A DNA stretch of 45,921 nt from Bacteroidia bacterium. GTDB lineage: Bacteria > Bacteroidota > Bacteroidia > SpSt-205. Made by a program: the position numbers and the translations under genes. Every line of letters begins with the position of its first letter. The first letter of the stretch is position 1. This document shows, one piece after another, positions 5,122 to 43,149 of this stretch. Under the pieces are notes generated by a model. It was given only the letters and a program-made list of their open reading frames with translations. It did not search any database and was not told the DNA's origin. The stretch covers positions 1-45,921 of the forward strand of contig JAOAHZ010000012.1 of NCBI GenBank assembly GCA_026414975.1. Direction: 5' to 3'.

Positions 5122-5367
5122 CGAGCTGCCTTTAGCTGCTCCAGCGAAGCACGAGCTTCGGAGGGAATAGTACAGCCTTAGGCATGCGGATTAAGAGGTA
5201 AGTATTAGGGTAGGGGTGGGAGTTCCATTCCTTCTGGGTTTAGCTTCGATCAGCCGCTCAAGTCTCATGATAAAGGTTCTTACCTTCGCTATTGAGGATT
5301 AGGCAAAATCGGCTTGTCTATGGGTGCTCAGGCAGGGGCAGGTCCTGGATGTACTCCCTACTTTCTT

Positions 5368-8300
5368 ATGAGGTTGTATTGTGGGATAGGATTGTGGCAT
5401 TTATTCTTGGTGGGGTGCGCTACCCAACCTCCTGATGCACCTCCCTCAGTCCTTCAAGTTACGCCTGATACAGTCGTTATATCCGCTCCGGACACATTTC
5501 ATTTGCCTGATACTGTTTTAGCGGCCCTCCGTTCGGTCAGGCAGCGGGGAAGGATTTCAGAGTTGCCCCGGGTTCCGCTCCAAAGGAGGTCTCTTTCTCA
5601 TTCTCTACTGCCTCTCATACAGACTATCAAACTGATGAGAGAGCCTGAACCGATGCCCCGCCTCCCCTCTCTATCAGAACTCAGGTCTTATCTTAGCTTT
5701 CTAAGTATTTTGCGCCGAGAATCGCATCCAGCACAGCCCCAACGAATATCTGTGAAGCCTCGGCGTTTTTTCATAGGCCATCCCACTGCTACTGAGCAAA
5801 CCTTGTTTCCTGCTACATTTTATGGACCCGAGTCCGGCTTGCCTCTCACTACGCCCGTTGAGTGTGCGGTAGATGATGCATTTGAGCGAGTATGGATTTT
5901 CTCTCAGAATGCCATGCTTTGCTGGGGTGGCACGCAAGTAGAGGTTTATTCATCGGAGGAAGGTTTTCCTTTAGCGAGTCTATCAGCCGGGGCATGGGAT
6001 ACTGAAGGACGCCTTTGGGTTTGTGGAGGCCAACACTTAGGCTTTTGGGACGGCAAGTCGTTTCATCAAGTACCTCTCCCTGGAGCGGTACAACGAGTCT
6101 TAGGTGTTATGCCTGGTCAGGTAACTTATTTTCGGGTGCTGGCTTCGGCGCCTGATCAGACACCTCTCATGGGATGGATCGCTGAAACCCTTCATGTATG
6201 GAGACCTGACAGGCGCATGGGGCTTTATCCCCTAGCGGTAGACTCGCTTGGGGTATGGTGCAGTTTATATGAGGGCAACTCTTTTTCCTTGGGTTTAGTT
6301 CGGGGGGACTCTCTTTGGCGATTGGAAGGGTGGAGAGGAGCAATCTCCGCTCGCCATATGCACTGGGACGGTCAAGGAGATCTGTGGATAGCTGGACGAC
6401 AAGGTTTGTGGCGCTGGCATGCGGGCGAGGTTCGGCAGGTGGCTCAGGGAGCAATCTCAGCTCTAACTGAGGTGGGGCCCGGGACTCTCCTTGTTCTACA
6501 TGAAGGTCGCCTGCGCTACACTCAGGGCGACTCTCTAAGTGATTTAGCGCTGGGTCTGCCGGTGGCGAGTTTAGACTATATGTATAGGCGCCCAAATGGT
6601 GAATGGTTATTTTTCGGACGAGAGGGGAGTGTCATCGTGATGTCGACTTCCGAAGCAGTCGTACTGCCTGTCGCTTCTTTAGCGGGGCAGAAAGACTGGG
6701 TCTTCGCTCTACATGCGACACCTCAAGGAGAGATTTGGGTCGGCCTTGAAGAACAAGGTCTCATGAGGCTCTCTCCATCGGGGCGTGTGGAGGTCATGAC
6801 TTTGCCCAAGTCAAGTGAGTATCTTCCTTTAGGAGAGGTGGTAACGCTTCGGAAGCGAGACACGGCTCTGTGGCTGGGTTGGTACGCTCAAGGACGCCGG
6901 CAAGGAACATGGCTATGGACCGACAGAGGGGAAGTACTTGCTCAACCTCCCTATAAAGAGGGATGGTTAGATGTAGTCCCTATATCAGACGGATGGATAT
7001 GGCAGTCTCATCCCGCTGGGATTAGCATATCACCCATAAATGCCCTGCACCCCTTCTATCTACTTGGTTTGCATCCCACTACGCCGTTTCATCGTGATGG
7101 GCAAGGGTGGTTATGGTTTGGCACTCAGGAGGGCCTATGTGCATGGACAGGGTCTCATGTACTTCGCTGGAGGTTACCCGAGTCAAGCGGCTTAATCTTG
7201 GCTATTGCTTCAGATGAAAGGCAGCGAGTATGGGTGGGCACGCAAGGACATGGGCTTTACTGCTATCAGAAGGGGCTATGGAAACGCTGGACGCCACGAC
7301 AAGGCCTACTTAGCCCTCTCGTAGCTCAAATTTCTGTCTCTGACTCTGGATTGTGGCTAGGTCTGAGCGAAGGGATCGCCTTTCTCTCTGAGTCGGGCTA
7401 TCTCATCTCATACCGAAATAAATTGGGGCTGCCCGAAGTGGGCGGCGTAAACGGAGGGCTATTTCGCTCAGCTCACACCAAGCTGGAGCAGCCTGCCCTA
7501 CAGGGTGCCCTACCCCCTGAGAGCTGGATCACAGGTGCAGGAAGTTATATTCTGTGCTTTCCTGAGGAGCCTCGGAGGCTTGCATCACCTCCTCGCCCCT
7601 ATATCGCTTCTGTGGAAGTGGAACAAGATAAGACTCATCCTTCAGGGAAGTCAGAAAACGGAGACAGCCTCATAGTTGTGCCATATAAGCTGCCTGTGGG
7701 TTTGGAGATTCCTTATGAGCAGGATCGGTTGCGTATTACCTTTGCGCACGGCGGTCGTTTCGCCAAAGAGGCGGGAGTAGAGTACCGGGTTTACTTAGAA
7801 GGGTTAGATAGGGCTTGGATGGTGCCACTGGCAGGCAGCCGCACCGAGTATCGTCGCCTTTTGCCGGGTCGCTACACACTGTACCTTATCGCTCGGTATC
7901 CAGACAGCGAATGGAGTCGGCCAGTGCAATTTTCCTTCACAGTGAGGGCGCCCTGGTGGCTAAGCGTATGGGCCTTTTTTCTATACGGAGGGCTTTTGGC
8001 CTTAGCGATTTGGGGTATCATAAGCTGGCGTACCGCTGTCCTCCGAAAACGAGCTCGTGAACTGGCTCTTAAAGTAGAGGAAGCTACCGCTACCATACGA
8101 GAGCAGAATACTCTGCTTCATGTCCAAAACGAAAAGTTAGCCGAACAGAATCTTCTTATCCTTCGGCAGAAGGAGGAGATTGAACAAGCTAACCGCTCGT
8201 TATTAGAGAGCATAAACTACGCCAGACGCATTCAATCAGCGCTCATACCGCCAGAGGCGTTTCTCCAGCAGTATTTTGCAGAGAGCTTTGCATTCTGGAA

Positions 8301-8982
8301 GCCTCGGGATATCGTCAGTGGAGATGTGTATGGGGTATATTCTGATCCCTCGGACCCAGATGCTTTGTATCTATTTGTAGCGGACTGTACGGGGCACGGG
8401 GTTCCAGGCGCCTTTGTAAGCTTGATGACACTGACCCTTCTCCATCGTACGCTTACTGAGTACCGGCTCACGGATCCGGCGGAGATATTCTTTTCGCTGT
8501 CCCAGCAGCTTACGACTCTGCTCCATCCAGACACAGCCGATTACCTAAAGGATGGGTTTGAAGGGGTGCTGGCGCGATTTGAAAAGAAGGGCCCGACATG
8601 GAGTAGTCTTCGATACGCTGCAGCTCGGAGTCCTTTCTGGCTTATCCGGGATGGGACCCTTGCAGAACAGCCCTACGATCCTTATCCAGTTGGACCTCTG
8701 GAGATAGCTAAGGTATCTCATGAACCTTTTCGTTCCTATGTCTTGGACTTAAGAGCAGGCGACTGGTTGTATTTTGCCTCTGATGGATTTATGGATCAGC
8801 TCGGCGGTCCTCGCGGACGCAAGTATGGTTATCCAGCCTTTCGTCGTCTTCTTGTAGAGCTGAGCCATCTTTCGGTACCGGAACAGAAAGCTTCCTTAGA
8901 GCGCGCCTCAGAGGCTTGGAGAGGTGCTTATCCGCAGGTGGATGATGTTCTGGTTTTAGGAGTGGGTATATCCTCGTATTAG
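5368..8982 (+). CDS. Beta-propeller/Y_Y_Y sensor with SpoIIE-type PP2C phosphatase output, lipoprotein signal
   Basis: A 1204-residue receptor. ATG 5368 begins MRLYCGIGLWHLFLVGC, a good lipoprotein signal with an LVGC lipobox; earlier in-frame starts (TTG 5314, ATG 5320) would bury it. A Pro/Ser-rich linker leads to a long two-component-regulator-type propeller (about residues 140-690, repeated WxGTxxGL-like blades such as LWFGTQEGL, VWVGTQGHGLY), a Y_Y_Y domain (about 780-860), one membrane segment (WWLSVWAFFLYGGLLALAIW), a coiled coil (about 900-965) and the INYARRIQSALIPP linker. The SpoIIE phosphatase domain follows, with ADCTGHGVPGAF, ASDGF and DDVLVLG metal-site motifs. The propeller should be periplasmic and the phosphatase cytoplasmic, probably acting on an anti-sigma-antagonist or similar phosphoprotein, none of which is nearby. 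No clear -7 box precedes it. Confidence 0.88.
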   Translation: MRLYCGIGLWHLFLVGCATQPPDAPPSVLQVTPDTVVISAPDTFHLPDTVLAALRSVRQRGRISELPRVPLQRRSLSHSLLPLIQTIKLMREPEPMPRLPSLSELRSYLSFLSILRRESHPAQPQRISVKPRRFFIGHPTATEQTLFPATFYGPESGLPLTTPVECAVDDAFERVWIFSQNAMLCWGGTQVEVYSSEEGFPLASLSAGAWDTEGRLWVCGGQHLGFWDGKSFHQVPLPGAVQRVLGVMPGQVTYFRVLASAPDQTPLMGWIAETLHVWRPDRRMGLYPLAVDSLGVWCSLYEGNSFSLGLVRGDSLWRLEGWRGAISARHMHWDGQGDLWIAGRQGLWRWHAGEVRQVAQGAISALTEVGPGTLLVLHEGRLRYTQGDSLSDLALGLPVASLDYMYRRPNGEWLFFGREGSVIVMSTSEAVVLPVASLAGQKDWVFALHATPQGEIWVGLEEQGLMRLSPSGRVEVMTLPKSSEYLPLGEVVTLRKRDTALWLGWYAQGRRQGTWLWTDRGEVLAQPPYKEGWLDVVPISDGWIWQSHPAGISISPINALHPFYLLGLHPTTPFHRDGQGWLWFGTQEGLCAWTGSHVLRWRLPESSGLILAIASDERQRVWVGTQGHGLYCYQKGLWKRWTPRQGLLSPLVAQISVSDSGLWLGLSEGIAFLSESGYLISYRNKLGLPEVGGVNGGLFRSAHTKLEQPALQGALPPESWITGAGSYILCFPEEPRRLASPPRPYIASVEVEQDKTHPSGKSENGDSLIVVPYKLPVGLEIPYEQDRLRITFAHGGRFAKEAGVEYRVYLEGLDRAWMVPLAGSRTEYRRLLPGRYTLYLIARYPDSEWSRPVQFSFTVRAPWWLSVWAFFLYGGLLALAIWGIISWRTAVLRKRARELALKVEEATATIREQNTLLHVQNEKLAEQNLLILRQKEEIEQANRSLLESINYARRIQSALIPPEAFLQQYFAESFAFWKPRDIVSGDVYGVYSDPSDPDALYLFVADCTGHGVPGAFVSLMTLTLLHRTLTEYRLTDPAEIFFSLSQQLTTLLHPDTADYLKDGFEGVLARFEKKGPTWSSLRYAAARSPFWLIRDGTLAEQPYDPYPVGPLEIAKVSHEPFRSYVLDLRAGDWLYFASDGFMDQLGGPRGRKYGYPAFRRLLVELSHLSVPEQKASLERASEAWRGAYPQVDDVLVLGVGISSY

Positions 8983-9018: not shown

Positions 9019-12000
9019 ATGCGGCTTCCCTTACACTGGCTTGCGGGGGCACTAATACTTTGGGCGCAGGAGTGTGATGTGATTTTCGTCGCACCTAACG
9101 GGAATACTGGGCCAGGTTCTGGCACCCGGGACAACCCTGCTGAACTTAACTACGCTATCACTAACCTTCTCACGCCGACGATTCGGCGCATATACATGGC
9201 TGCTGGTGTTTATGTACTCAATCAACCGCTTCCCCTTCATAATGGACTCCAAATAGAGGGGGGCTTCTTGCCAGCGCAGGGTTGGTTGAAGACGAATCTG
9301 TTTCCCACGATACTCTTTCGGGCTGCTGTCAATCCGCAGCCTAATCCCAATCGTCTTGTAGCGATAGAAGGAATAAGTGTGAGCGGCTTTCGGATTCAGG
9401 ATTTAGAGGTGTATGTGGAGGATGCAACGGCGCTGGGGGCGGGAACGACGACCTATGCCCTGTATTTGAATGGATGTAGTGATTATGTCGTGAATCGGTG
9501 CCGGTTTTCAGCGGGAGCCGGAGCCAATGGTAATCCCGGCGCAAATGGAGCCGCAGGTAGAAACGGCGCGCCTGGGCAGATCGGGGAACGCGGAGACGAG
9601 GATGGAGGCTGCTGCCGACTCGGTGGAGCAGGGGGAAATAGCTGGTCGGGAGGACTTGTAGCCGGCGGAAATGGAGGTACTGGCGGAGCCAGAGGTAGTT
9701 GTGGTCCTGGCGGAAATGCTCCTCCCGGTTCTCCGGGACAGCAAGGCAGTCCAAATACGGCCCAACCATTCGCCCCGGCAGGCGGTAGTGGTGGAGGGGG
9801 AGGTGTGGGAAATTCTACTGTTGTTTCCCTTGGTTGTGATAACTTCCCAGCTCAGAATGGCGGTGACGGACAGCCAGGACAAAACGGTGCAAATGGGGTA
9901 GCTGGCGGACCAGGCACGCCGACACACGCAGCGGGCTTTTTCCAGCCCGGTGATGGACAACCCGGTCAAGATGGTCAGCACGGTTCTGGGGGAGGTGGCG
10001 GCGGCGGAGGGGGGAGTCAGGGTAATCTAATATGTTTCCCCTCTAACCTAAATGGCGCCGGCGCCGGAGGAGGTGGGGGGGGCGAAGGAGGAGAGGGGGG
10101 TAAAGGTGGTAGAGGAGGCGGTGGAGGGGGCGGTTCTTTTGGGATATACTTATGGAATAATGGTACTGGCGCGCTCTTCGTAGATGTTATAGCTGAATCT
10201 AGTATTCCAGGCGCTGGTGCTGCTGGGGGATTTGGTGGAGTTGGTGGAGTCGGGGGGGCCGGTGGGTGCGGTGGAGCGCGCGGTTGTGCAGGTCAGCCTA
10301 ACGCTTGCGATATTGGATATGGGGGCAATGGTGGCGCCGGTGGGAATGGCGGTAATGGCGGTAACGGTGGTCCGGGCGCATCTGGATTAGCTCAAAACTT
10401 CTATGTCTCTCCTTCCAGTATAGCGCCTACTACGGCTACTTTTCGGGCGCCTGACGAACCCAAAGTCTTCATTCAATACTCAGGATGCACTGACCGCGAA
10501 GTCAAAGTCTGGACAGATGCTGCGGGATTTCTAGTCTGGTTTTTCGGACCAGGTAGCAATCCGCCGACAGCTACGGGTGACACGGTTTTTACTCGGTATT
10601 CTACCCTTGGACGCAAAAACCTTTCTCTCATCGCCAATGGACAGACCTATGTCTATTATGACTTCTTAGACATCCGGGATAATGGAAGCGGTACCAATCC
10701 AACCTTCACTCAAAGCGCCGATACTGTATGCTTGGGCGCTTCTGTTACATTCACGAGCAGCTTGCCAGGGGCGGCTAACTACGCATGGGATTTTGGGGGG
10801 GGGGCCTCTCCTGTTACCGCACCCACCGCTCAGACTACCCAGATTACCGCTAATACGCCTGGGAATTTCACTATAACCCATCGTACCTATTCTCCCTGCT
10901 GTGGGTGGTCGGATCCATTTCGTAGGACGCTTGTTATTTTACCTACACCTCCTCCCACCATAACCATACAGACCGCTAATGGCTCCACGACTACATGCAC
11001 TGCCGAACCAGTGACATTTATCGCACAACTTCAAAATTTTGCGCCTAATCCGACTATTTCCTGGCTCGTGAATGGCGTAGCTCAGGGGAGTGGCTCTACC
11101 TTCGTACTCAACAATCCTCAGTCCGCTGTGCAGGTGCAAGCCGTCGCCACGGGGAATACCCCCTGTTCTCACGGTCAGCCCATTTCCTCTAATGCGATAA
11201 CCCTTACAGTTCATCCTTTGCCTCAGGTGCAGTATTCTGGTACGAGCTGTATTTCAATTAGCGGTTCTCCCGTACCGGGTGAGCTTCTTACGCTTTCTGC
11301 GGCTGCCTCTGGTGGCAGTGCGCCGTATATCTTTTATTGGGATTTAGGAGATGGGCGCGGGGCTGTGGGTAATCCTGCCACGGTGATGTATCCCGCGTCA
11401 GGCACTTACCAAATTAAGCTGACTGTGGTAGATGCGAATGGTTGTCGTAGTACAGCCACACCTTGCGAGACTACTTTGGTGGTGGCTCAGCGTCCGCTGG
11501 CGGATTTTGGAGCTACGCCTATGCAGGGCTGCCCGCCACTTACGGTAAGCTTCACTAACCTGAGTGCTTATGCTAATGCCTATCGGTGGGATTTCGGGGA
11601 TGGTACGCCTATTTCCACTCAGACGAACCCCATCCACGTTTATCGCACCTCGGGCGAATACACGGTTACTTTATATGCAATCTCTGCCAATGCGAATGAT
11701 ACAGCTATTCGTCAGACCCAAGTAGTCGTTTATCCTGTGCCTGTCGCAGATTTTTCAGTTTTCCCTCCTATCCTGTATGAGGGAGATACAGCCTTCTTTG
11801 TCTCTCAATCACAGGGGGCTAATTCTTGGCTCTGGCTCTTTGGTGATCCTGCTAATCCAACGGCCTCTTCTACGGAGTCCGACCCCAGCTACTACTACAG
11901 TCAGCCTGGGCGTTATACAGTTACTCTCATTGTTGAGAACTTGTATGGCTGTCGGGATACTATCACGAAGTCTGAAGCTGTCATCAAACTTCCGAATCCT

Positions 12001-12246
12001 GCACCTGCCTCTCTGGCGGCTTTTCCCCGAGAAGGTATCAGGGTTTTCCCCAATCCTTTTACGGAGAGCGTTCAGGTGCTCCTGCCGGGAGAAGCGAGTA
12101 TTGTCCTCTACGACAGCCAAGGTGCACTGCTCAGGCGAGGTACCTTCGCCAAGGGATTGCACACTCTGTCTCTGAGAGAGCTCGCTGCGGGCATATACTT
12201 TCTACGAGTCGGACCTTACGCTATCAAGCTTCAAAAAATCGGCTGA
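9019..12246 (+). CDS. Giant secreted Gly-rich/collagen-like PKD protein with T9SS type A sorting domain
   Basis: A 1075-residue secreted protein. After a signal peptide (MRLPLHWLAGALILWAQ) comes a beta-helix-like region with VAPNGNTGPGSGTRDNPAEL, VYVLNQPLPL and LQIEGGF (about residues 24-160), as in DUF1565/pectate-lyase-like proteins. A Gly-rich insert covers about 165-455: it begins with Gly-X-Y triplets (GANGNPGANGAAGRNGAPG) and continues with GGxGG runs. A beta-helix-like rung (FGIYLWNNG) interrupts it. About four to five PKD/Ig-like domains follow (YAWDFGGG, FYWDLGDG, YRWDFGDG, WLWLFGD; about 560-990). The end is a T9SS type A domain (VFPNPFTESVQV ... LAAGIYFLRV ... KLQKIG), for surface anchoring or release. 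It is the upstream member of a paralogous pair; the next gene begins 3 bases after the stop. An adhesive or matrix role is inferred. G8 and G10 tracts occur at 10075 and 10795. Confidence 0.88.
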   Translation: MRLPLHWLAGALILWAQECDVIFVAPNGNTGPGSGTRDNPAELNYAITNLLTPTIRRIYMAAGVYVLNQPLPLHNGLQIEGGFLPAQGWLKTNLFPTILFRAAVNPQPNPNRLVAIEGISVSGFRIQDLEVYVEDATALGAGTTTYALYLNGCSDYVVNRCRFSAGAGANGNPGANGAAGRNGAPGQIGERGDEDGGCCRLGGAGGNSWSGGLVAGGNGGTGGARGSCGPGGNAPPGSPGQQGSPNTAQPFAPAGGSGGGGGVGNSTVVSLGCDNFPAQNGGDGQPGQNGANGVAGGPGTPTHAAGFFQPGDGQPGQDGQHGSGGGGGGGGGSQGNLICFPSNLNGAGAGGGGGGEGGEGGKGGRGGGGGGGSFGIYLWNNGTGALFVDVIAESSIPGAGAAGGFGGVGGVGGAGGCGGARGCAGQPNACDIGYGGNGGAGGNGGNGGNGGPGASGLAQNFYVSPSSIAPTTATFRAPDEPKVFIQYSGCTDREVKVWTDAAGFLVWFFGPGSNPPTATGDTVFTRYSTLGRKNLSLIANGQTYVYYDFLDIRDNGSGTNPTFTQSADTVCLGASVTFTSSLPGAANYAWDFGGGASPVTAPTAQTTQITANTPGNFTITHRTYSPCCGWSDPFRRTLVILPTPPPTITIQTANGSTTTCTAEPVTFIAQLQNFAPNPTISWLVNGVAQGSGSTFVLNNPQSAVQVQAVATGNTPCSHGQPISSNAITLTVHPLPQVQYSGTSCISISGSPVPGELLTLSAAASGGSAPYIFYWDLGDGRGAVGNPATVMYPASGTYQIKLTVVDANGCRSTATPCETTLVVAQRPLADFGATPMQGCPPLTVSFTNLSAYANAYRWDFGDGTPISTQTNPIHVYRTSGEYTVTLYAISANANDTAIRQTQVVVYPVPVADFSVFPPILYEGDTAFFVSQSQGANSWLWLFGDPANPTASSTESDPSYYYSQPGRYTVTLIVENLYGCRDTITKSEAVIKLPNPAPASLAAFPREGIRVFPNPFTESVQVLLPGEASIVLYDSQGALLRRGTFAKGLHTLSLRELAAGIYFLRVGPYAIKLQKIG
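10795..10804 (+). repeat. Homopolymeric G10 tract inside coding sequence
   Basis: Ten consecutive G bases lie in the first PKD-like domain of the type A surface protein (residues DFGGGA). The site is a weaker slippage candidate than the G20 tract of the neighbour. Confidence 0.8.
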
Positions 12247-12249
12247 AAC

Positions 12250-15200
12250 ATGAAACTACTCAAATACCTTCTCGGCTTTATACTATTGGGGTGGGCACAG
12301 ACGCAGAGTTGTGGATATATCTATGTGCCAGGTGGAAATGTACCAGCTCTGCAAGCGGCTATTACTCAGGCTTCCACTGGGCCTATCAAGCACATTCGGC
12401 TAGGGATTGGAGACTTTCTGCTGACCTCGCCCCTAACGCTGGAAGACGGGGTTATTTTAGAAGGGGGATTTGACCTATCTAATCCCTCTGCACCAGTCAA
12501 ACGTAGCGGAGGGATCACGCGCCTGCGCCGTTTGAGTGGTACCCCCGAAGCTAATCCTTGCCGTCTCGTGGCTGTTCAAGCAGTGAATAAGTCGGGTTTT
12601 GAGCTACATGATTTATACATAGAGGTCGAGAATGCAAGCTATACAGCGGACGGACCCAGCTGCTCCACGTACGGTTTATATCTGAGCGGATGTTCAAACT
12701 ATCAGATAGTGCGTTGTCGTATCCATGCGGGTAATGCGACGGATGGCAAGCCTGGCGACCCTGTACCTAATGGGCGAAATGGTGCTCCTGGGGCAAAAGG
12801 GGAGGATGGCTGTCGGCAGTGCCAGCCAGGCGTTCAAGACCCTAATAATGATGGAGGTGCAGGGGGGAGCAGTTGGTCGGGTGGGGCCCAGGCGGGAGGA
12901 AATGGCGGCAGTGGCGCTCCTATAGGATTGGGAAGAGGTCCAACGGGAGGATTTCCTGGATGTCTTGACCTAAATCTATGTAATGGTGCGTCGGCTCCCG
13001 GAGGACAAGCTGGTCAAAATGGCAATACCAGCGTATTAGGACAGCTTGTGGGAATCGGGGGGGCGCCTGGACAGGGGCAGAACATATGTTCGAATTTTAC
13101 AGATGCGGCTGGTTTTATAGGTGCTCTGGGGGGGTGTCCTTCGGACGATCCTCTCAGAGGAGGCCAGAACGGCACCAATGGAGCAAATGGACGAGACGGT
13201 ACGGATGGGCAGCCTGGAAGCCCGAGCTTTGCGGGGGGATGGTTCATTCCAGGTAATGGTCAGGATGGGCAGGCAGGTGAGCATGGCTCAGGTGGCGGTG
13301 GAGGTGGGGGAGGAGGAGCCTTAGGCGGTATCCCTCATGATATAGCCTGCTTCATCATAGATGACGGTTACACAAATAGCTCTGGTGGAGGTGGCGGCGG
13401 TGGTGGTGAGGGAGGTGAAGGCGGACCAGGCGGTAAAGGGGGGGGGGGGGGGGGGGGAGCTTTTGCCCTCTTCCTCTGGAATAACGGGGCAAATGGGGTA
13501 ATACGCGATTGTCCTCTGACAGTTGGTCAGCCGGGACAGGGTGCGGTTGGTTCGGCAGGAGGGGTAGGGGGACAAGGAGGAGCCGGAGGTTGTGGCGGCG
13601 GATGGACTGGCTCGCCTTGTCAGCGATTCTGTGGTCAGCCTCCTGCCCCTAATCAGTCTTGCGGAGCGGGCTGCCAAGGCGGCTGGGGAGGGAATGGTGG
13701 CCGAGGTGGCAATGGTGGTAATGGCGGACGCGGCGGCGATGGAGCTGACGGCATTGCTCAACCTTTCTACCAAAATCTCTCAGGACAGTCTCCAACTCTC
13801 ACTAATAGCTTCGTTCCTACCGAACCGCCCATCGCTGTCAGTGGTATGATTTGCTCCCATTCAGAATGTACTTTCTCTGTGGAAAATGCTGATCCCCTCA
13901 CTCAGTATGAATGGGGATTTGGAGCGAATGCGCAGCCTATTTTCGGTTATGGAGCGACCGCTTCTACCTCCTTTACTACGGCGGGCTTTCATACCGTTCT
14001 GCTTCGGGTAAATGGTGTGCCGTTCCGATACACGCTTTTTGCTTCGCCTATGCAGCCGGGCGTTATTCCAGCCATCCAATCCTTAGGCAGCCTTCCTGTG
14101 TGTCTGGGGGCTACCGCTTCCTTTCAAGCAAATCTCACGAATCCCGCTGGACGCGTCATTCAGAACTACCGCTGGCAGCTCACAGGTCCGATCTCTGATA
14201 TCGTTACCTCAGCAACGGCAAATACTTATACCACACCAGCTCTGACCCAAACAGGAACCTATAAGCTCTATTTGCGCGTATTTTCAGAATGCTGCGGCTG
14301 GTCTATTCAGGACTCCTTATCATTTCAGGTTGTCCCTACCCAAACAATGACTGCCCAGCTCATCGCTGCGCCTCCAGCAGTGTGTGCTGGCGAACCGATT
14401 ACGCTAACTGTAGTTGGGGGGAACTTGGGTCCTTCGCCTACCTATGTCTGGCGTAAAAATAATCAGCCTATTGCTGGGGCTAACGGTAGCTCATACACTG
14501 ATCCCGCCCCTCAAAATGGCGACTCCTATCAAGTGGAGGTGACTTCTAGTTTGTCCTGTATTAGTAATAGCCCACTCACGACAAACTCTGTCTCAGTAGT
14601 AGTGCATCCTACTCCTCAGCTTACCTGCACTTCGCCCCTTACTGGATATCTCGGTGTGCCTATCACTTTTGCCGTAAATGCTGCAAATGCCGCACAGCTT
14701 CAAGCCCCATATACTTATACCATAGACCTCGGAAATGGCTTCTCCTTGTCAGGACAGAGCAATACCCTACCAATTTCTGCTACAGCCAACTATGGTGGCT
14801 CTGGCAACTACACCGCTACAATAACTTTCACAGACGGTCGCGGCTGCAGGGCCACCTGTCAAGTCCAGGTGGCCATCTCAGCTTCTCCCCCCCCGACAGT
14901 TACTTTCTCATCTAATGTGCGGGAAGGCTGCGACCAGCTCACTGTTACCTTTACTGCACAACCTGCGGCTGATGAGTATCGGTGGAACTTTGGAGATGGT
15001 TCTCCCCCTCTGACCACCACTCAAAATCCCGTTCAGCATACCTATACCCAGCCTGGGTACTATACTGTGCGATTGGAGGCTCGTTTCGGCGGTACATGGA
15101 TACCTGTGGAACAGACGCATTATATCCGAGTGTATCGAACCCCTTCACCAGAGATAGGTATATTGAGTGCTGTATGTGCAAATCAGGCGGTGCAGTTTGC

Positions 15201-16155
15201 GGATATTGGCCAAGACGGATATAGCTGGCAGTGGGACTTTGGGGATGGAACGACCAGCACTGCGGCTGGACCTCAGCATGTATATGCAAGCTCGGGCACT
15301 TACACGGTCACATTGACTGCATGGAGCCATAACCGCGTGTGTTCCACGCGTGTCCAGCGTCAGATTACAGTCAATCGTCGTCCTGAGGCTGGCTTGGTTC
15401 TTAACCCTGCTGAAGGCTGCGTCCCTTTCACCGTTTCACCTCAGAATACGACGAATCCCGCCGGATCAACTGGGGTTTACTACATTTGGGTGTGGGGAGA
15501 TGGTGGGCGGGATACAGTACAGACGCCAGATGCTCCATCTCATACCTATACTCGTCCGGGCACTTACAATCTGGAACTGGTAGCTCTAAGCGCAGATGGC
15601 TGCAGAGATACGGCGCGACAGTCGGTGAATGTTTTATCTCGTCCTCAAGCCGCTTTTTCGCCACAGCAAGTTACTCAGCGACAACCAGAAACCCAAGTAA
15701 CTTTCACCAATCAATCTCAGGGTGCCGTATCGTATTTCTGGGACTTCGGTAACGGACAGACTTCTACAGCCGCTGAGCCCGGCAGCATAGATTTTCCTCA
15801 GCCTGGTACCTATACAGTTCTACTCGTTGCCACCAACGACCGCAACTGCACCGACACGGCTCGCGGAACGGTGATTATAGAACCAGGCATAGACCTTTTC
15901 ATTCCAAATGTCTTTACTCCAAATGGCGATGGAGTGAATGATCAGTGGCAAATCCGCGCTTCTATGCCTTACGAAGTCTGGGTATATGACCGATGGGGTA
16001 GATTGGTGTTTCAGGGCAATAATGCCCGGCTCTGGGATGGACGCAAGTCAGATGGCTCCGAGTGTCCAGAAGGGAGCTACACTTATAAATTGAGGGCTCG
16101 CCTTCCTTCGGGCACTGAACATGTCCGAACAGGTACTGTCACCATCCTCCGCTGA
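12250..16155 (+). CDS. Giant secreted Gly-rich/collagen-like PKD protein with T9SS type B (CHU_C) sorting domain
   Basis: A 1301-residue paralogue of the preceding gene. It has a signal peptide (MKLLKYLLGFILLGWAQ), a beta-helix-like start with LEDGVILEGGFDL (about 20-160), a Gly-rich insert (about 163-505; GRNGAPGAKGEDG, GANGRDGTDGQPG, GGNGGNGGRGGDG) broken by an ALFLWNNG rung, a conserved CCGW segment, and PKD domains including YRWNFGDG, WQWDFGDG, YIWVWGDG and YFWDFGNG (about 890-1205). The last about 85 residues are the gliding-motility-associated type B domain (IPNVFTPNGDGVNDQW ... VYDRWGRLVF ... WDG ... PEGSYTYKL). Known type B cargo uses the T9SS translocon but can rely on a PorP/SprF-like partner instead of type A handling. 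A run of 20 G at 13438-13457 encodes seven Gly and could switch the gene by slippage. Confidence 0.88.
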   Translation: MKLLKYLLGFILLGWAQTQSCGYIYVPGGNVPALQAAITQASTGPIKHIRLGIGDFLLTSPLTLEDGVILEGGFDLSNPSAPVKRSGGITRLRRLSGTPEANPCRLVAVQAVNKSGFELHDLYIEVENASYTADGPSCSTYGLYLSGCSNYQIVRCRIHAGNATDGKPGDPVPNGRNGAPGAKGEDGCRQCQPGVQDPNNDGGAGGSSWSGGAQAGGNGGSGAPIGLGRGPTGGFPGCLDLNLCNGASAPGGQAGQNGNTSVLGQLVGIGGAPGQGQNICSNFTDAAGFIGALGGCPSDDPLRGGQNGTNGANGRDGTDGQPGSPSFAGGWFIPGNGQDGQAGEHGSGGGGGGGGGALGGIPHDIACFIIDDGYTNSSGGGGGGGGEGGEGGPGGKGGGGGGGAFALFLWNNGANGVIRDCPLTVGQPGQGAVGSAGGVGGQGGAGGCGGGWTGSPCQRFCGQPPAPNQSCGAGCQGGWGGNGGRGGNGGNGGRGGDGADGIAQPFYQNLSGQSPTLTNSFVPTEPPIAVSGMICSHSECTFSVENADPLTQYEWGFGANAQPIFGYGATASTSFTTAGFHTVLLRVNGVPFRYTLFASPMQPGVIPAIQSLGSLPVCLGATASFQANLTNPAGRVIQNYRWQLTGPISDIVTSATANTYTTPALTQTGTYKLYLRVFSECCGWSIQDSLSFQVVPTQTMTAQLIAAPPAVCAGEPITLTVVGGNLGPSPTYVWRKNNQPIAGANGSSYTDPAPQNGDSYQVEVTSSLSCISNSPLTTNSVSVVVHPTPQLTCTSPLTGYLGVPITFAVNAANAAQLQAPYTYTIDLGNGFSLSGQSNTLPISATANYGGSGNYTATITFTDGRGCRATCQVQVAISASPPPTVTFSSNVREGCDQLTVTFTAQPAADEYRWNFGDGSPPLTTTQNPVQHTYTQPGYYTVRLEARFGGTWIPVEQTHYIRVYRTPSPEIGILSAVCANQAVQFADIGQDGYSWQWDFGDGTTSTAAGPQHVYASSGTYTVTLTAWSHNRVCSTRVQRQITVNRRPEAGLVLNPAEGCVPFTVSPQNTTNPAGSTGVYYIWVWGDGGRDTVQTPDAPSHTYTRPGTYNLELVALSADGCRDTARQSVNVLSRPQAAFSPQQVTQRQPETQVTFTNQSQGAVSYFWDFGNGQTSTAAEPGSIDFPQPGTYTVLLVATNDRNCTDTARGTVIIEPGIDLFIPNVFTPNGDGVNDQWQIRASMPYEVWVYDRWGRLVFQGNNARLWDGRKSDGSECPEGSYTYKLRARLPSGTEHVRTGTVTILR
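13438..13457 (+). repeat. Homopolymeric G20 tract inside coding sequence
   Basis: Twenty consecutive G bases encode part of a (Gly)7 run near residue 397 of the type B surface protein. Gain or loss of one base would shift the frame and remove all PKD domains and the sorting domain. Such tracts are classic slipped-strand phase-variation sites, and are also prone to sequencing error. Confidence 0.9.
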
Positions 16156-39314: not shown

Positions 39315-41078
39315 TCAACGAGGGTTGCTCAGCCCTTCCCACCGAAGGTAAACCAACTTAGGGGGCATAGGGTAGCCTTGAATGACCTGATACGAGGCAC
39401 TTAGGACATTTTCAGCTCCAAGTTCTATCTTCCAATTTCCCCTAATATAAACAAAGTTCATGGCATGCAAATGATAGGGGTTCAGCAGAGTATATCGGCT
39501 CGGAGCTAAGCTACTGGTACGCCAGCTTATGTATTGACTTTGATAGAGGATGCGCCAGTGCTTGAGGGTCCATATAAGGCCCATGCCTCCCATAAAAGGC
39601 GGCGTGTAGGGTAGTACAGCGCCCTGCGTAAAAGAATATTCTTTTGCCGATAGGGTTGTAGCTGAGATCCAAACCTTAAGGCGGCCAAGGTAACCTTCTA
39701 AGCGGCCCTCGCTGCCTACACTTTCCACATAGCCTAAACTGTAGGCTTGCCAGCGCACGGGAGAAAGGGGTATCGTAACGATACGGTTACGGGTTTGAGC
39801 GACAAATACACTGGCATAAATCCGCCAGACTTGCCCTGATTTTTCTACAAACGCTTGAGCTTGAATGGAGCGTTCGGGGGGGAGGGTGGGATTGCCATAG
39901 CCAACCCAGTATCGCTCCCATAGGCTCGGAAAGCGCACACCCTGCATGATTTCCATTCCTATCCCATGCCATCCTGCTCGCAGGAGAAAAGACCCTAAAG
40001 GACGAAAGCGACTCAAGGCGGTTAGCCGAGCCTCCCCTCGCAAGTAGGCGGATCGTTTCTGCCAGTGCGAGAAGCCGATGAGAGCACCTTCATACTGAGC
40101 TATCTGGGGTATGGGGCTAAATCCCACGGCAGTTCGGTTACTGCGCACCCAATCTCCCGCTAAGTATAGCATATAACCGCTGAAAATAGCCTTATACCTT
40201 ACCTCCTGCTGAAGCTGAGCTTGAAGGGTGTGAAGCCGACTTGTGCTCAGCTGCTGGAAAGCATCCCTGTGATCCACGGCTTCGGTGAAATGTTGAAAGC
40301 GGAGGGTTCCCCTTGGGAAGGGGACTTCTAAGGTGTGAATGAGGGTACGCTGACTGAGGTGTTCAGTGGGACCTCCGACGGCCCCCCCTAAGACGGGAGG
40401 AGGAATAGATTGGTCGCTGCTGTAGCCCCAGCCTGTAACCTGGCAAGCTCGGTATCGGTAAGCCCAGGTCGCTTGGAGGTAGCGATACTCAGCTCCTTCC
40501 CGCAGGCCGCGTTCGGGCTGCGAAAATGGATACCGATTAAGCGCGGAGAGTGCCGAGGCTTGAAGCAGGAGGGAAGGTCTCTCATAAAGGGTATATGCGC
40601 TTATTTCCCCGTAGCTGCCTACTCGCCAACCTCCCACCGATCGATGACGTTCAGGCTGCCACCGCAGATGAAGCAGTCCAATCGCCCCTGGGGATAATCC
40701 CAAGTTGCCACCTGGGGCGTATTCTACTGTATGAAGGCCGGGAAGAAAGAAGGGTGCCAGATTCACTAAACCCAAAGTCGGTGCTCGCAAAGGCATACCT
40801 TGAACGCTTACCGCTGTCAGGGGTGCGCCCATACCCCGAATGGACAGAGTCTTCAAGCTGCCCTGCCCTCCGTAGTCTCGCAGATAAACCCCCTCGGTTT
40901 GGGCTAAGAGAGCCGCTATATGGTCGCCTACCGCTGACCAGCCTGCCGAGTCTCTTATCCATCGCTTGAGCCGGAGGGGACGCTCTGCCTCTATGACGAG
41001 GGGGGATAAAGTATAATCCGCTACCTGACTGAGGGTCAGCTCAGGCAGCCAGATAAGGCGCAAGCACCAGCGCCACAA
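39315..41078 (-). CDS. TonB-dependent outer-membrane receptor
   Basis: A 587-residue receptor. A short signal ([18 protein letters not shown]) precedes a plug domain: [41 protein letters not shown] (about 58-98) and [24 protein letters not shown]. The rest has aromatic barrel strands ending in [39 protein letters not shown]. No CarboxypepD domain or SusD partner is present, so it is more BtuB/siderophore-receptor-like than SusC-like; the ligand is unknown. It overlaps the pyrophosphatase gene by 38 bases. Confidence 0.88.
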
Positions 41079-43149
41079 TGCCCGTTAGCTTGACGAGGAT
41101 ATTCATGGAAGGCCCTGAAGTATCCTTAAGGGGATCGCCCACAGTGTCGCCCGTAACGGCTGCTTTGTGAGGCTCAGACTTTTTGTAGTAGGTCTGTCCG
41201 TCTATCTCTACCCCCTTCTCAAAAGACTTTTTTGCGTTGTCCCACGCGCCGCCAGCATTGCTTTGAAAGAGACCTAAAAGGACACCAGTCATGGTAACAC
41301 CTGCCATGTACCCTCCTAAAACTTCGGCCCCCAGTGTCAGTCCTACGATAGCTGGGATGATTAGAGCTAAAGCCCCAGGTAAAATCATTTCCCTAAGAGC
41401 TGCTTGGGTAGAAATCTCCACGCAGCGTTCGTACTGCGGTTCGGCTTTTCCCTCCATAAGCCCAGCAATCTCCCGAAACTGTCGTCGCACCTCTTTGACC
41501 ATGTCCATCGCTGCGCGCCCCACGGCGGAAATGGCTAAAGACGAGAAAAGAAAGGGCACCATAGACCCTAAAAGCAAACCGCCCAAAACGGGAGCTTTGT
41601 AGATGTCTATGCTCTGGATATGAGCTACACCGACATAGGCGGCAAATAGAGCCAAGGCGGTAAGCGCCGCTGAGGCAATAGCAAAGCCTTTCCCCATTGC
41701 TGCTGTGGTATTACCTACAGCGTCCAGTACATCTGTACGACCTCGTACTTCCTCGGGGAGGCCGCTCATTTCCGCTATTCCCCCAGCGTTATCAGCGATA
41801 GGACCGAAAGCATCTATGGTAAGCTGCATCGCCGTAGTACTCATCATGCCCGTAGCGGCGATAGCGACTCCATAGAGCCCTGCTAAGGTATAGGCCCCCA
41901 AGATGCCGCCTACCATGATAAGCGCAGGTAGAGCCGTAGATTCCATGCCCACAGCCAATCCTCCCAAAATATTCGTTGCATGTCCAGTGAGGGAGCGCTG
42001 AACTATGGAGCGAACGGGTCGCTTCCCCATGCCTGTGTAATACTCTGTAACCCAGCTCATCAGAGCTCCAACCAAAAGCCCTATGGCTATCGCTCCGAAA
42101 ACAGAGGTTGGAAGCACGGTCTGACCTCGCAGACTGGCACCTTTGGGTAAAAGCCCTTCCACCAGCCCATACGAAGCTATCACAGTGAGGATTACAGCCC
42201 CCCAGTTGCCTATGTTTAAGGCGTTTTGGACCTGTTGAGGACCGGCTCCCTCTCTCACTCGTACGAAAAAGGTCGCTACGATGGAGAAAAAGAGACCTGT
42301 TCCTGCCAAAGAGAGGGGTAGCAGCACCGGTCCTAAGCCGCCTGCGCTTTGAGTCATTTCTCCTCCTAACACCATCGTAGCCAAGATAGTCGCCACGTAA
42401 GAGCCGAAGAGGTCCGCTCCCATTCCCGCGATATCCCCCACATTGTCGCCAACATTATCGGCGATGACCGCCGGATTGCGTGGGTCGTCCTCGGGGATAC
42501 CGGCTTCTATCTTGCCGACTAAGTCGGCCCCCACATCAGCAGCTTTAGTGTAGATGCCCCCTCCCACGCGGGCGAATAGCGCAATGCTTTCAGCTCCCAG
42601 CGAAAAGCCTGTAATCACCTCTATCACGCGCTGAACCTCAGGGCTAAGGGGATTACCTCCCGCAAAAAGCCAGTAGAATAGAACGAACAAGCCTCCCATA
42701 CCTAACACAGCCAAGGACCCCACGCCAATCCCCATGACCGATCCACCGTGAAAGGCTATAGCGAATGCTCTCGCTAAGGAGCTACGAGCGGCCTCGGTAG
42801 TGCGCACATTAGAGCGCGTCGCAATCCGCATCCCGATATAGCCTGCCAGGGCAGACGTAAAGGCGCCCACTAAGAAAGCGGCTCCGATGAGAGGATGAGA
42901 CCTCAGCTCGCCCGAGCGCCCCGAAAGGGTACCACTGTATGTAAGGAGACCCGCTACAATCACCGCAAAGACAGCCAGCACGCGCCATTCAGCTTTCAGG
43001 AAAGCTAAAGCTCCGCGTGCAATGTAACTAGATATAGCTTGCATCCGATCATCTCCTGTCGGTTGAGCCAGTATCCACCGAGTACGCCATAGGAGAAACA
43101 GGAGTCCTATCCCCGCTAATCCAATAGGGAGGTACAAGAGAAAATCCAT
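41041..43149 (-). CDS. hppA: Membrane-bound cation-translocating pyrophosphatase, K+-dependent type
   Basis: A 702-residue, about 16-segment membrane pump coupling pyrophosphate hydrolysis to ion export. The catalytic motif [35 protein letters not shown] is complete (about 186-220), as are the second Asp clusters [13 protein letters not shown] and the C-terminal [23 protein letters not shown] has Ala where K+-independent enzymes have Lys, so K+-dependent activity is predicted. ADLFGSY has Gly where many members have Glu, a position tied to ion choice; I cannot say whether H+ or Na+ is moved. A TAACTTTG box 8 bases before ATG begins with the stop codon of the upstream permease. Confidence 0.95.

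Follow-up and report, generated by a model that had tools for sequence, protein, structure and literature searches.

The cargos of the type IX secretion system (T9SS) that come closest to the proteins described here, namely SprB, RemA and AmyB of Flavobacterium johnsoniae and PG1035 of Porphyromonas gingivalis, are marked by a Sec signal together with a type A or type B domain at the C terminus, which the T9SS recognises. In F. johnsoniae the C-terminal domain alone sets the fate of the cargo: type A cargos, which use PorV, are statically anchored or released, and type B cargos, which use PorP/SprF-like proteins, are delivered to the gliding machinery or to a static site. The known or predicted type B cargos are adhesins, and when the two kinds of sorting domain were exchanged experimentally between cargos, the tag decided the destination of the protein (PMC12618676). 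PorP-like barrels hold the type B cargo (PMC9143113). Here we analysed a 45,921-nucleotide stretch of DNA (the window), which is one entire contig (JAOAHZ010000012.1) of the 2.2-Mb, 58-contig genome of a Bacteroidia bacterium (GCA_026414975.1) and which carries two adjacent genes for cargos of this kind, ORF A and ORF B. As in the proteins listed above, a signal peptide is combined with a C-terminal type A or type B domain. Unlike in those systems, two tandem genes encode related heads, each with a different tag, and what adjoins the type B gene is not a PorP/SprF shuttle gene but the type A twin. The gene pair resembles an evolutionary version of the sorting-domain swap, kept in many families. 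From its sequence features, and by analogy with published T9SS work, we lean towards regarding the pair as a conserved two-gene surface module that would show related heads in two surface contexts, with adhesion or the building of a surface layer or matrix as the most likely role.

ORF A (positions 9019-12246, + strand, 1075 amino acids) and ORF B (12250-16155, + strand, 1301 amino acids) are co-directional and separated by 3 bases (tga aac atg). The two proteins are 48-49% identical across their first 580 residues, and BLASTP on the complete proteins gave an E value of 3e-35. Thus, the coordinates, the spacing and the paralogy proposed in an earlier sequence-only reading of the window were all borne out, although the proteins, which that reading had called giant, are better described as large. 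Both follow the same domain order: leader, head, Gly-rich part, repeats of the PKD/Ig-like type and a C-terminal T9SS domain. The type A sorting domain of A (residues 1009-1064; 12043-12210, + strand) scored 32.8 bits with the TIGR04183 model, above its cut-off of 23; with the Pfam model Por_Secre_tail it scored 26.8 against a cut-off of 27, that is, 0.2 bits short. The type B (CHU_C) sorting domain of B (residues 1217-1298; 15898-16143, + strand) was recognized both by TIGR04131 (45.7 bits, cut-off 35) and by CHU_C (62.1 bits, cut-off 27). These hidden Markov models therefore assign the two proteins to opposite sorting classes, as had been suggested. The genome of the host holds five members of this protein family.

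The arrangement is not a peculiarity of this genome. We read the gene order in 60 regions with homologues and found 28 adjacent A-then-B pairs. They come from 12 families (f1, f5, f9, f11, f22, f25, f26, f30, f44, f49, f56 and f119), in all of which ORF A has orthologues; both genes lie on the same strand, and the gap ranges from -4 to 324 nt. The two genes often overlap by 4 nt or sit a few bases apart. Across the pairs A measures ~1061-1124 amino acids (it is shorter in L048 and truncated by the contig end in L050) and B ~1225-1318. When 10 pairs from 10 families were compared with the NCBIfam models, the A proteins all scored as type A (28.5-49.3 bits) and the B proteins all as type B (37.1-61.2 bits), above the cut-offs throughout; type A was combined with type B in 11/11 pairs tested with these models, and the classes of the other pairs agree by profiles built from the NCBIfam-scored pairs. 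In a thirteenth family (f15, 3 genomes) A and B are both present, in reversed order and 2.7-3.2 kb apart. The pair is, in summary, an old, conserved module, found far beyond the genome in which it was noticed.

Homologues of the family were present in 33/100 of the relatives searched and in 67/395 genomes of the class (protein query), and a scan of 395 genomes of the phylum with a profile of the head (E <= 1e-10) matched only the genome of the window; the class and phylum draws of 395 genomes differ, and these frequencies are loose. The named relatives of ORF A belong to metagenome-assembled genomes labelled Bacteroidia (KatS3mg025, KatS3mg026, SKYB95 and SKYB116), which, judging from these names alone, come from hot springs. 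In one single-contig genome (KatS3mg025; G005, regions L037 and L034) A and B both appear frameshifted, through either assembly error or decay.

The host encodes T9SS machinery: a SprA translocon (2219 bits), a PorU sortase (956 bits) and PorP-family proteins. Its genome also has 40 matches to the type A model and 12 to the type B model. Three PorP-family genes were found, two of them above the cut-off; the third adjoins a different type B gene on contig C11. The GldJ matches of this genome all fall below the cut-off (best 122.8 vs 458.2) and each adjoins a PorP-family gene; they are probably GldK, so these matches do not demonstrate gliding. Among the PorP-family matches of the host genome none lies beside the window pair, and in 18 genomes with the pair none of the matches listed adjoins it. 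In F. johnsoniae, 9 of the 12 type B genes adjoin a PorP/SprF-like shuttle gene and the three remaining "orphans" share one shuttle (PMC12618676); such adjacency is common for type B cargos, not universal. Since no listed PorP-family match adjoins the pair, we group B with the orphan type B genes, and because no shuttle is encoded beside B, its shuttle must act in trans. The constant neighbour of B is its type A twin; besides the pair itself, no neighbour is common to the families.

We then considered what the two proteins would display. The head of A (residues 20-166; 9076-9516, + strand) was modelled by AlphaFold2 (AF2), in runs that used 10 sequences, with predicted local distance difference test (pLDDT) values of mostly ~70-93 per ten-residue block. 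The homologous head of B (residues 20-161; 12307-12732, + strand) lay for the most part at 73-92 and fell lower around residue 112 and at its end. Structural comparison of residues 1-460 of the A model with VIA-align placed it close to the pectate lyase Pel9A (1ru4; Z 15.0, root-mean-square deviation 2.9, 170 residues), and the further best fold matches of the head were a rhamnogalacturonan lyase, a pectin methylesterase and GH87. In the comparison of the B model, PKD domains took up the list of matches, so it tells nothing about the head of B. The beta-helix-like start noticed in the sequence-only reading is supported by the AF2 model and the Pel9A match. Pel9A and other right-handed beta-helix lyases share the predicted fold of the head; unlike here, Pel9A has no Gly-rich interruptions, identity to it is 15%, and the head matched no lyase family model. 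The range covered by the Pel9A match fits one right-handed beta-helix with large Gly-rich loops.

The Gly-rich parts are interrupted by sequences that look like rungs of the helix. The insert of A (residues 167-453; 9517-10377, + strand) has 285 residues and 41% Gly when counted over residues 167-451, and is broken by the rung FGIYLWNNG (10138-10164, + strand), a strand with a pLDDT of ~80 in the model. The insert of B (residues 162-495; 12733-13734, + strand) has 332 residues and 36% Gly when counted over residues 162-493, and contains the rung FALFLWNNG (13462-13488, + strand), a strand with a pLDDT of ~61-65 that aligns to the rung of A. Since the Pel9A match covers both sides, the proposal that the Gly-rich parts are inserted between beta-helix rungs agrees with the models.

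The Gly-rich parts are strongly periodic. In-phase Gly triplet runs of at least 4 triplets cover 182 residues in A and 132 in B, compared with 59 and 46, respectively, in shuffled versions, and none of 2000 shuffles reached the observed values. The glycines are also conserved by position. Across 46 aligned proteins (23 pairs), with A as the reference, the 118 glycines of its insert had a mean conservation of 87%, and 85 of the 118 were present in at least 90% of the sequences; the mean was 30% at the 169 non-Gly positions of the insert, 45% in the head and 34% in the tail after the insert. When the Gly-rich region was realigned alone, Gly conservation was 0.87 in 397 columns with few gaps, and shuffled versions gave 0.55-0.60 and needed ~700-800 columns. 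The length is almost constant too (279-295 amino acids in A, 276-337 in B). Judged by this conservation, the Gly-rich part is not a drifting low-complexity stretch.

Among the closest known domains are the PGRS domains of the mycobacterial PE_PGRS proteins, for which a polyglycine II sandwich has been modelled (PMC9436101, PMC10216338). In that model the first Gly of every triplet faces inward (PMC10216338), and the PGRS domains likewise combine GGX triplets and surface display with a conserved inward-facing glycine and freedom at the other positions. The Gly-rich parts described here contain GGX/GXX triplet runs with a position-specific glycine, and the pattern of fixed Gly and free other positions matches what the polyglycine II model demands. 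They differ from PGRS in belonging to another phylum, in being inserted in a predicted beta-helix and in their near-constant length (PGRS domains are highly polymorphic), and their fold is putative. The Gly-rich polyglycine II bundles of phage S16 gp38 and of the snow flea antifreeze protein (cited in PMC13243192) also have Gly-triplet runs and likely use the same packing principle. Unlike those proteins, the Gly-rich part had no counterpart among PDB chain sequences (nothing at E <= 10), phage records or PHROGs; the PHROGs matches were only of the Hoc and tail Ig-like kind and fell in the repeats, and the plasmid matches listed were only of the PKD type. Beyond mycobacteria and phages, the Gly-rich part is a candidate for a large family of domains with ordered Gly packing, and its strict position-specific glycines and near-constant length recommend it for a first structure determination.

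The sequence-only reading had offered two folds for this part, polyglycine II bundles and collagen-like helices. Of these, the former fits the conserved-glycine pattern, but AF2 gave pLDDT values of only ~25-37 over most of the Gly-rich part in both A and B; for this reason we infer, rather than read from the models, the option that we favour, a Gly-packed and ordered fold of which the polyglycine II bundle is one example. The low model confidence and runs of as many as 9 Gly-X-Y triplets could instead point to a flexible linker without order, or to a triple helix like that of collagen. We consider this unlikely. The Gly positions are conserved far above the shuffled controls and the length is nearly constant, with few gaps, which is not what one would expect of a flexible low-complexity linker. 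The sequence-only reading had named two results that would refute it, a single sorting class in both proteins or Gly-rich parts confidently modelled as disordered and lacking homologues; neither was seen, for the classes differ and homologues are many. A collagen triple helix is disfavoured: the runs are short and interrupted (the longest in-phase run has 10 triplets, mostly GGX), Pro amounts to 6-7%, and Pfam Collagen did not match A or B at E <= 1. Another possibility is that the pair encodes beta-helix carbohydrate-active enzymes or glycan-binding proteins, the tags giving one cell-bound copy and one that is released or differently placed. An enzymatic or glycan-binding role is possible, since the best fold matches of the head are with enzymes of this kind. 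However, no carbohydrate-active Pfam family was found at E <= 1 in 10 members, and no Pfam lyase model matched the head at that threshold; in the 46-protein alignment the most conserved columns are structural glycines rather than a polar cluster, and adhesins and phage tailspikes use beta-helices as well. As an explanation of the pair, this one appears quite improbable.

The pair could also be an ordinary tandem duplication of a T9SS adhesin, its members kept together by descent and carrying two sorting classes without a joint function. T9SS cargos are indeed numerous in the Bacteroidota, as the counts in the host genome illustrate, and the third subtype of the family, A' (see below), is often unlinked. 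However, the A-then-B adjacency persists in 12 families that share no other neighbour, commonly with the 4-nt overlap or a spacing of a few bases, and no final pair of like with like was seen; we therefore regard mere duplication as somewhat doubtful. Several observations weigh against a two-gene module with related heads. In two genomes (L081 and L082) A has no B beside it, and the extra type A paralogue A' of some genomes departs from a strict two-gene scheme. Identity between the heads of A and B is only ~42-46%, which means that their binding partners may differ, and their fold is also that of polysaccharide lyases, which leaves room for an enzymatic role; finally, there is the low AF2 confidence over the Gly-rich parts.

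On balance, we prefer the conserved two-gene surface module. For this reading the homology, the tags and the conserved pairing are observed and the beta-helix is modelled, and the fibre and the two attachment routes of the sequence-only reading would follow from the tags by analogy with published T9SS work. Each head would be a right-handed beta-helix on a PKD/Ig stalk, and a domain of ~285-330 residues, Gly-packed and probably polyglycine II-like, would interrupt its rungs. The protein of A would exit by the PorV/PorU type A route and become lipopolysaccharide (LPS)-anchored or released, and that of B would exit by a PorP/SprF-type shuttle and be mounted non-covalently on an outer-membrane barrel. 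The cell would then display related heads in two surface contexts. As a tentative extension, the LPS-anchored or released type A heads and the barrel-tethered type B heads could cooperate, with the shared shuttle of the type B twin acting in trans; hypothetically, the heads might bind each other or a common ligand and in this way form a surface layer or cross-link cells. Each part belongs to a kind already described: the T9SS tags, the PKD repeats, the beta-helix and the Gly-packed domain, the last being probable. A limited literature search found neither a conserved tandem whose related heads bear opposite T9SS tags nor Gly-rich beta-helix T9SS proteins. The pair could reveal what makes both routes necessary to a single organism with related heads.

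The type A paralogue A' (~1150-1190 amino acids) is a third gene in some genomes, where it lies upstream of the pair; in f1 it is elsewhere. In a tree built from the 300 residues that follow the Gly-rich part, the tails split into A, B and A' lineages: A' of f1 joins A' of other families (support 100/100) and A of f1 joins A elsewhere (83/59), so that both unite distant families, and B is unresolved, with two clades. Because A' and A of f1 group with other families in this way, the three types are probably older than the families. In the N-terminal region, by contrast, the members of f1 and f49 group together (98/97). This region rejects a single A' clade (P of the approximately unbiased test 1.6e-6), and the tails reject the lineage clade (2.9e-4). 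Recombination between paralogues or misfit of the model could each explain this conflict between the trees of the N-terminal region and of the tails. Pairwise identities gave no clear homogenisation of the heads, and the head-only and Gly-only trees are weak.

Other arrangements of family members were also seen. In L054, L055, L075, L077 and L087 three or four members follow one another (as A', A, B or as A', A, A, B), with the single type B gene last. Type B members with related heads also occur outside pairs (L059, L067, L070, L071 and L048:3830-8389), with up to 2248 amino acids, and some of these seem to carry the Gly-rich part further along the protein.

The remaining features of the two proteins are their leaders and repeats. 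The signal peptides of A (MRLPLHWLAGALILWAQ; 9019-9069, + strand) and B (MKLLKYLLGFILLGWAQ; 12250-12300, + strand) were judged by eye: both are short and hydrophobic and end in WAQ. The PKD domains noticed earlier are present in both proteins, with PKD_4 in 4 stretches of A (10378-12030, + strand), and PKD_4 in 6 and Ig_7 in 3 stretches of B (13735-15897, + strand). Both repeat regions contain a conserved segment, previously read as CCGW; the segment is real and stands out among the conserved columns, but its consensus in the family is CCGxS and the W is variable. The grappling-hook protein GhpA of Aureispira (entries from cryo-electron microscopy) is likewise a large surface protein with PKD/Ig-like repeats, and the similarity is confined to these repeats.

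Finally, 36 bases upstream of A ends a gene (5314-8982, + strand) with a beta-propeller (Reg_prop), Y_Y_Y and a SpoIIE-type phosphatase domain, whose nearest NCBIfam model is the SiaA biofilm-regulation phosphatase (127.6 bits against a cut-off of 700). This gene is not kept beside other pairs; in L044 a gene similar in sequence sits downstream of the pair. Further along the window (41041-43149, - strand) lies a complete membrane H+-pyrophosphatase gene (866.9 bits), flanked by an amino-acid permease and a TonB-receptor-like gene.

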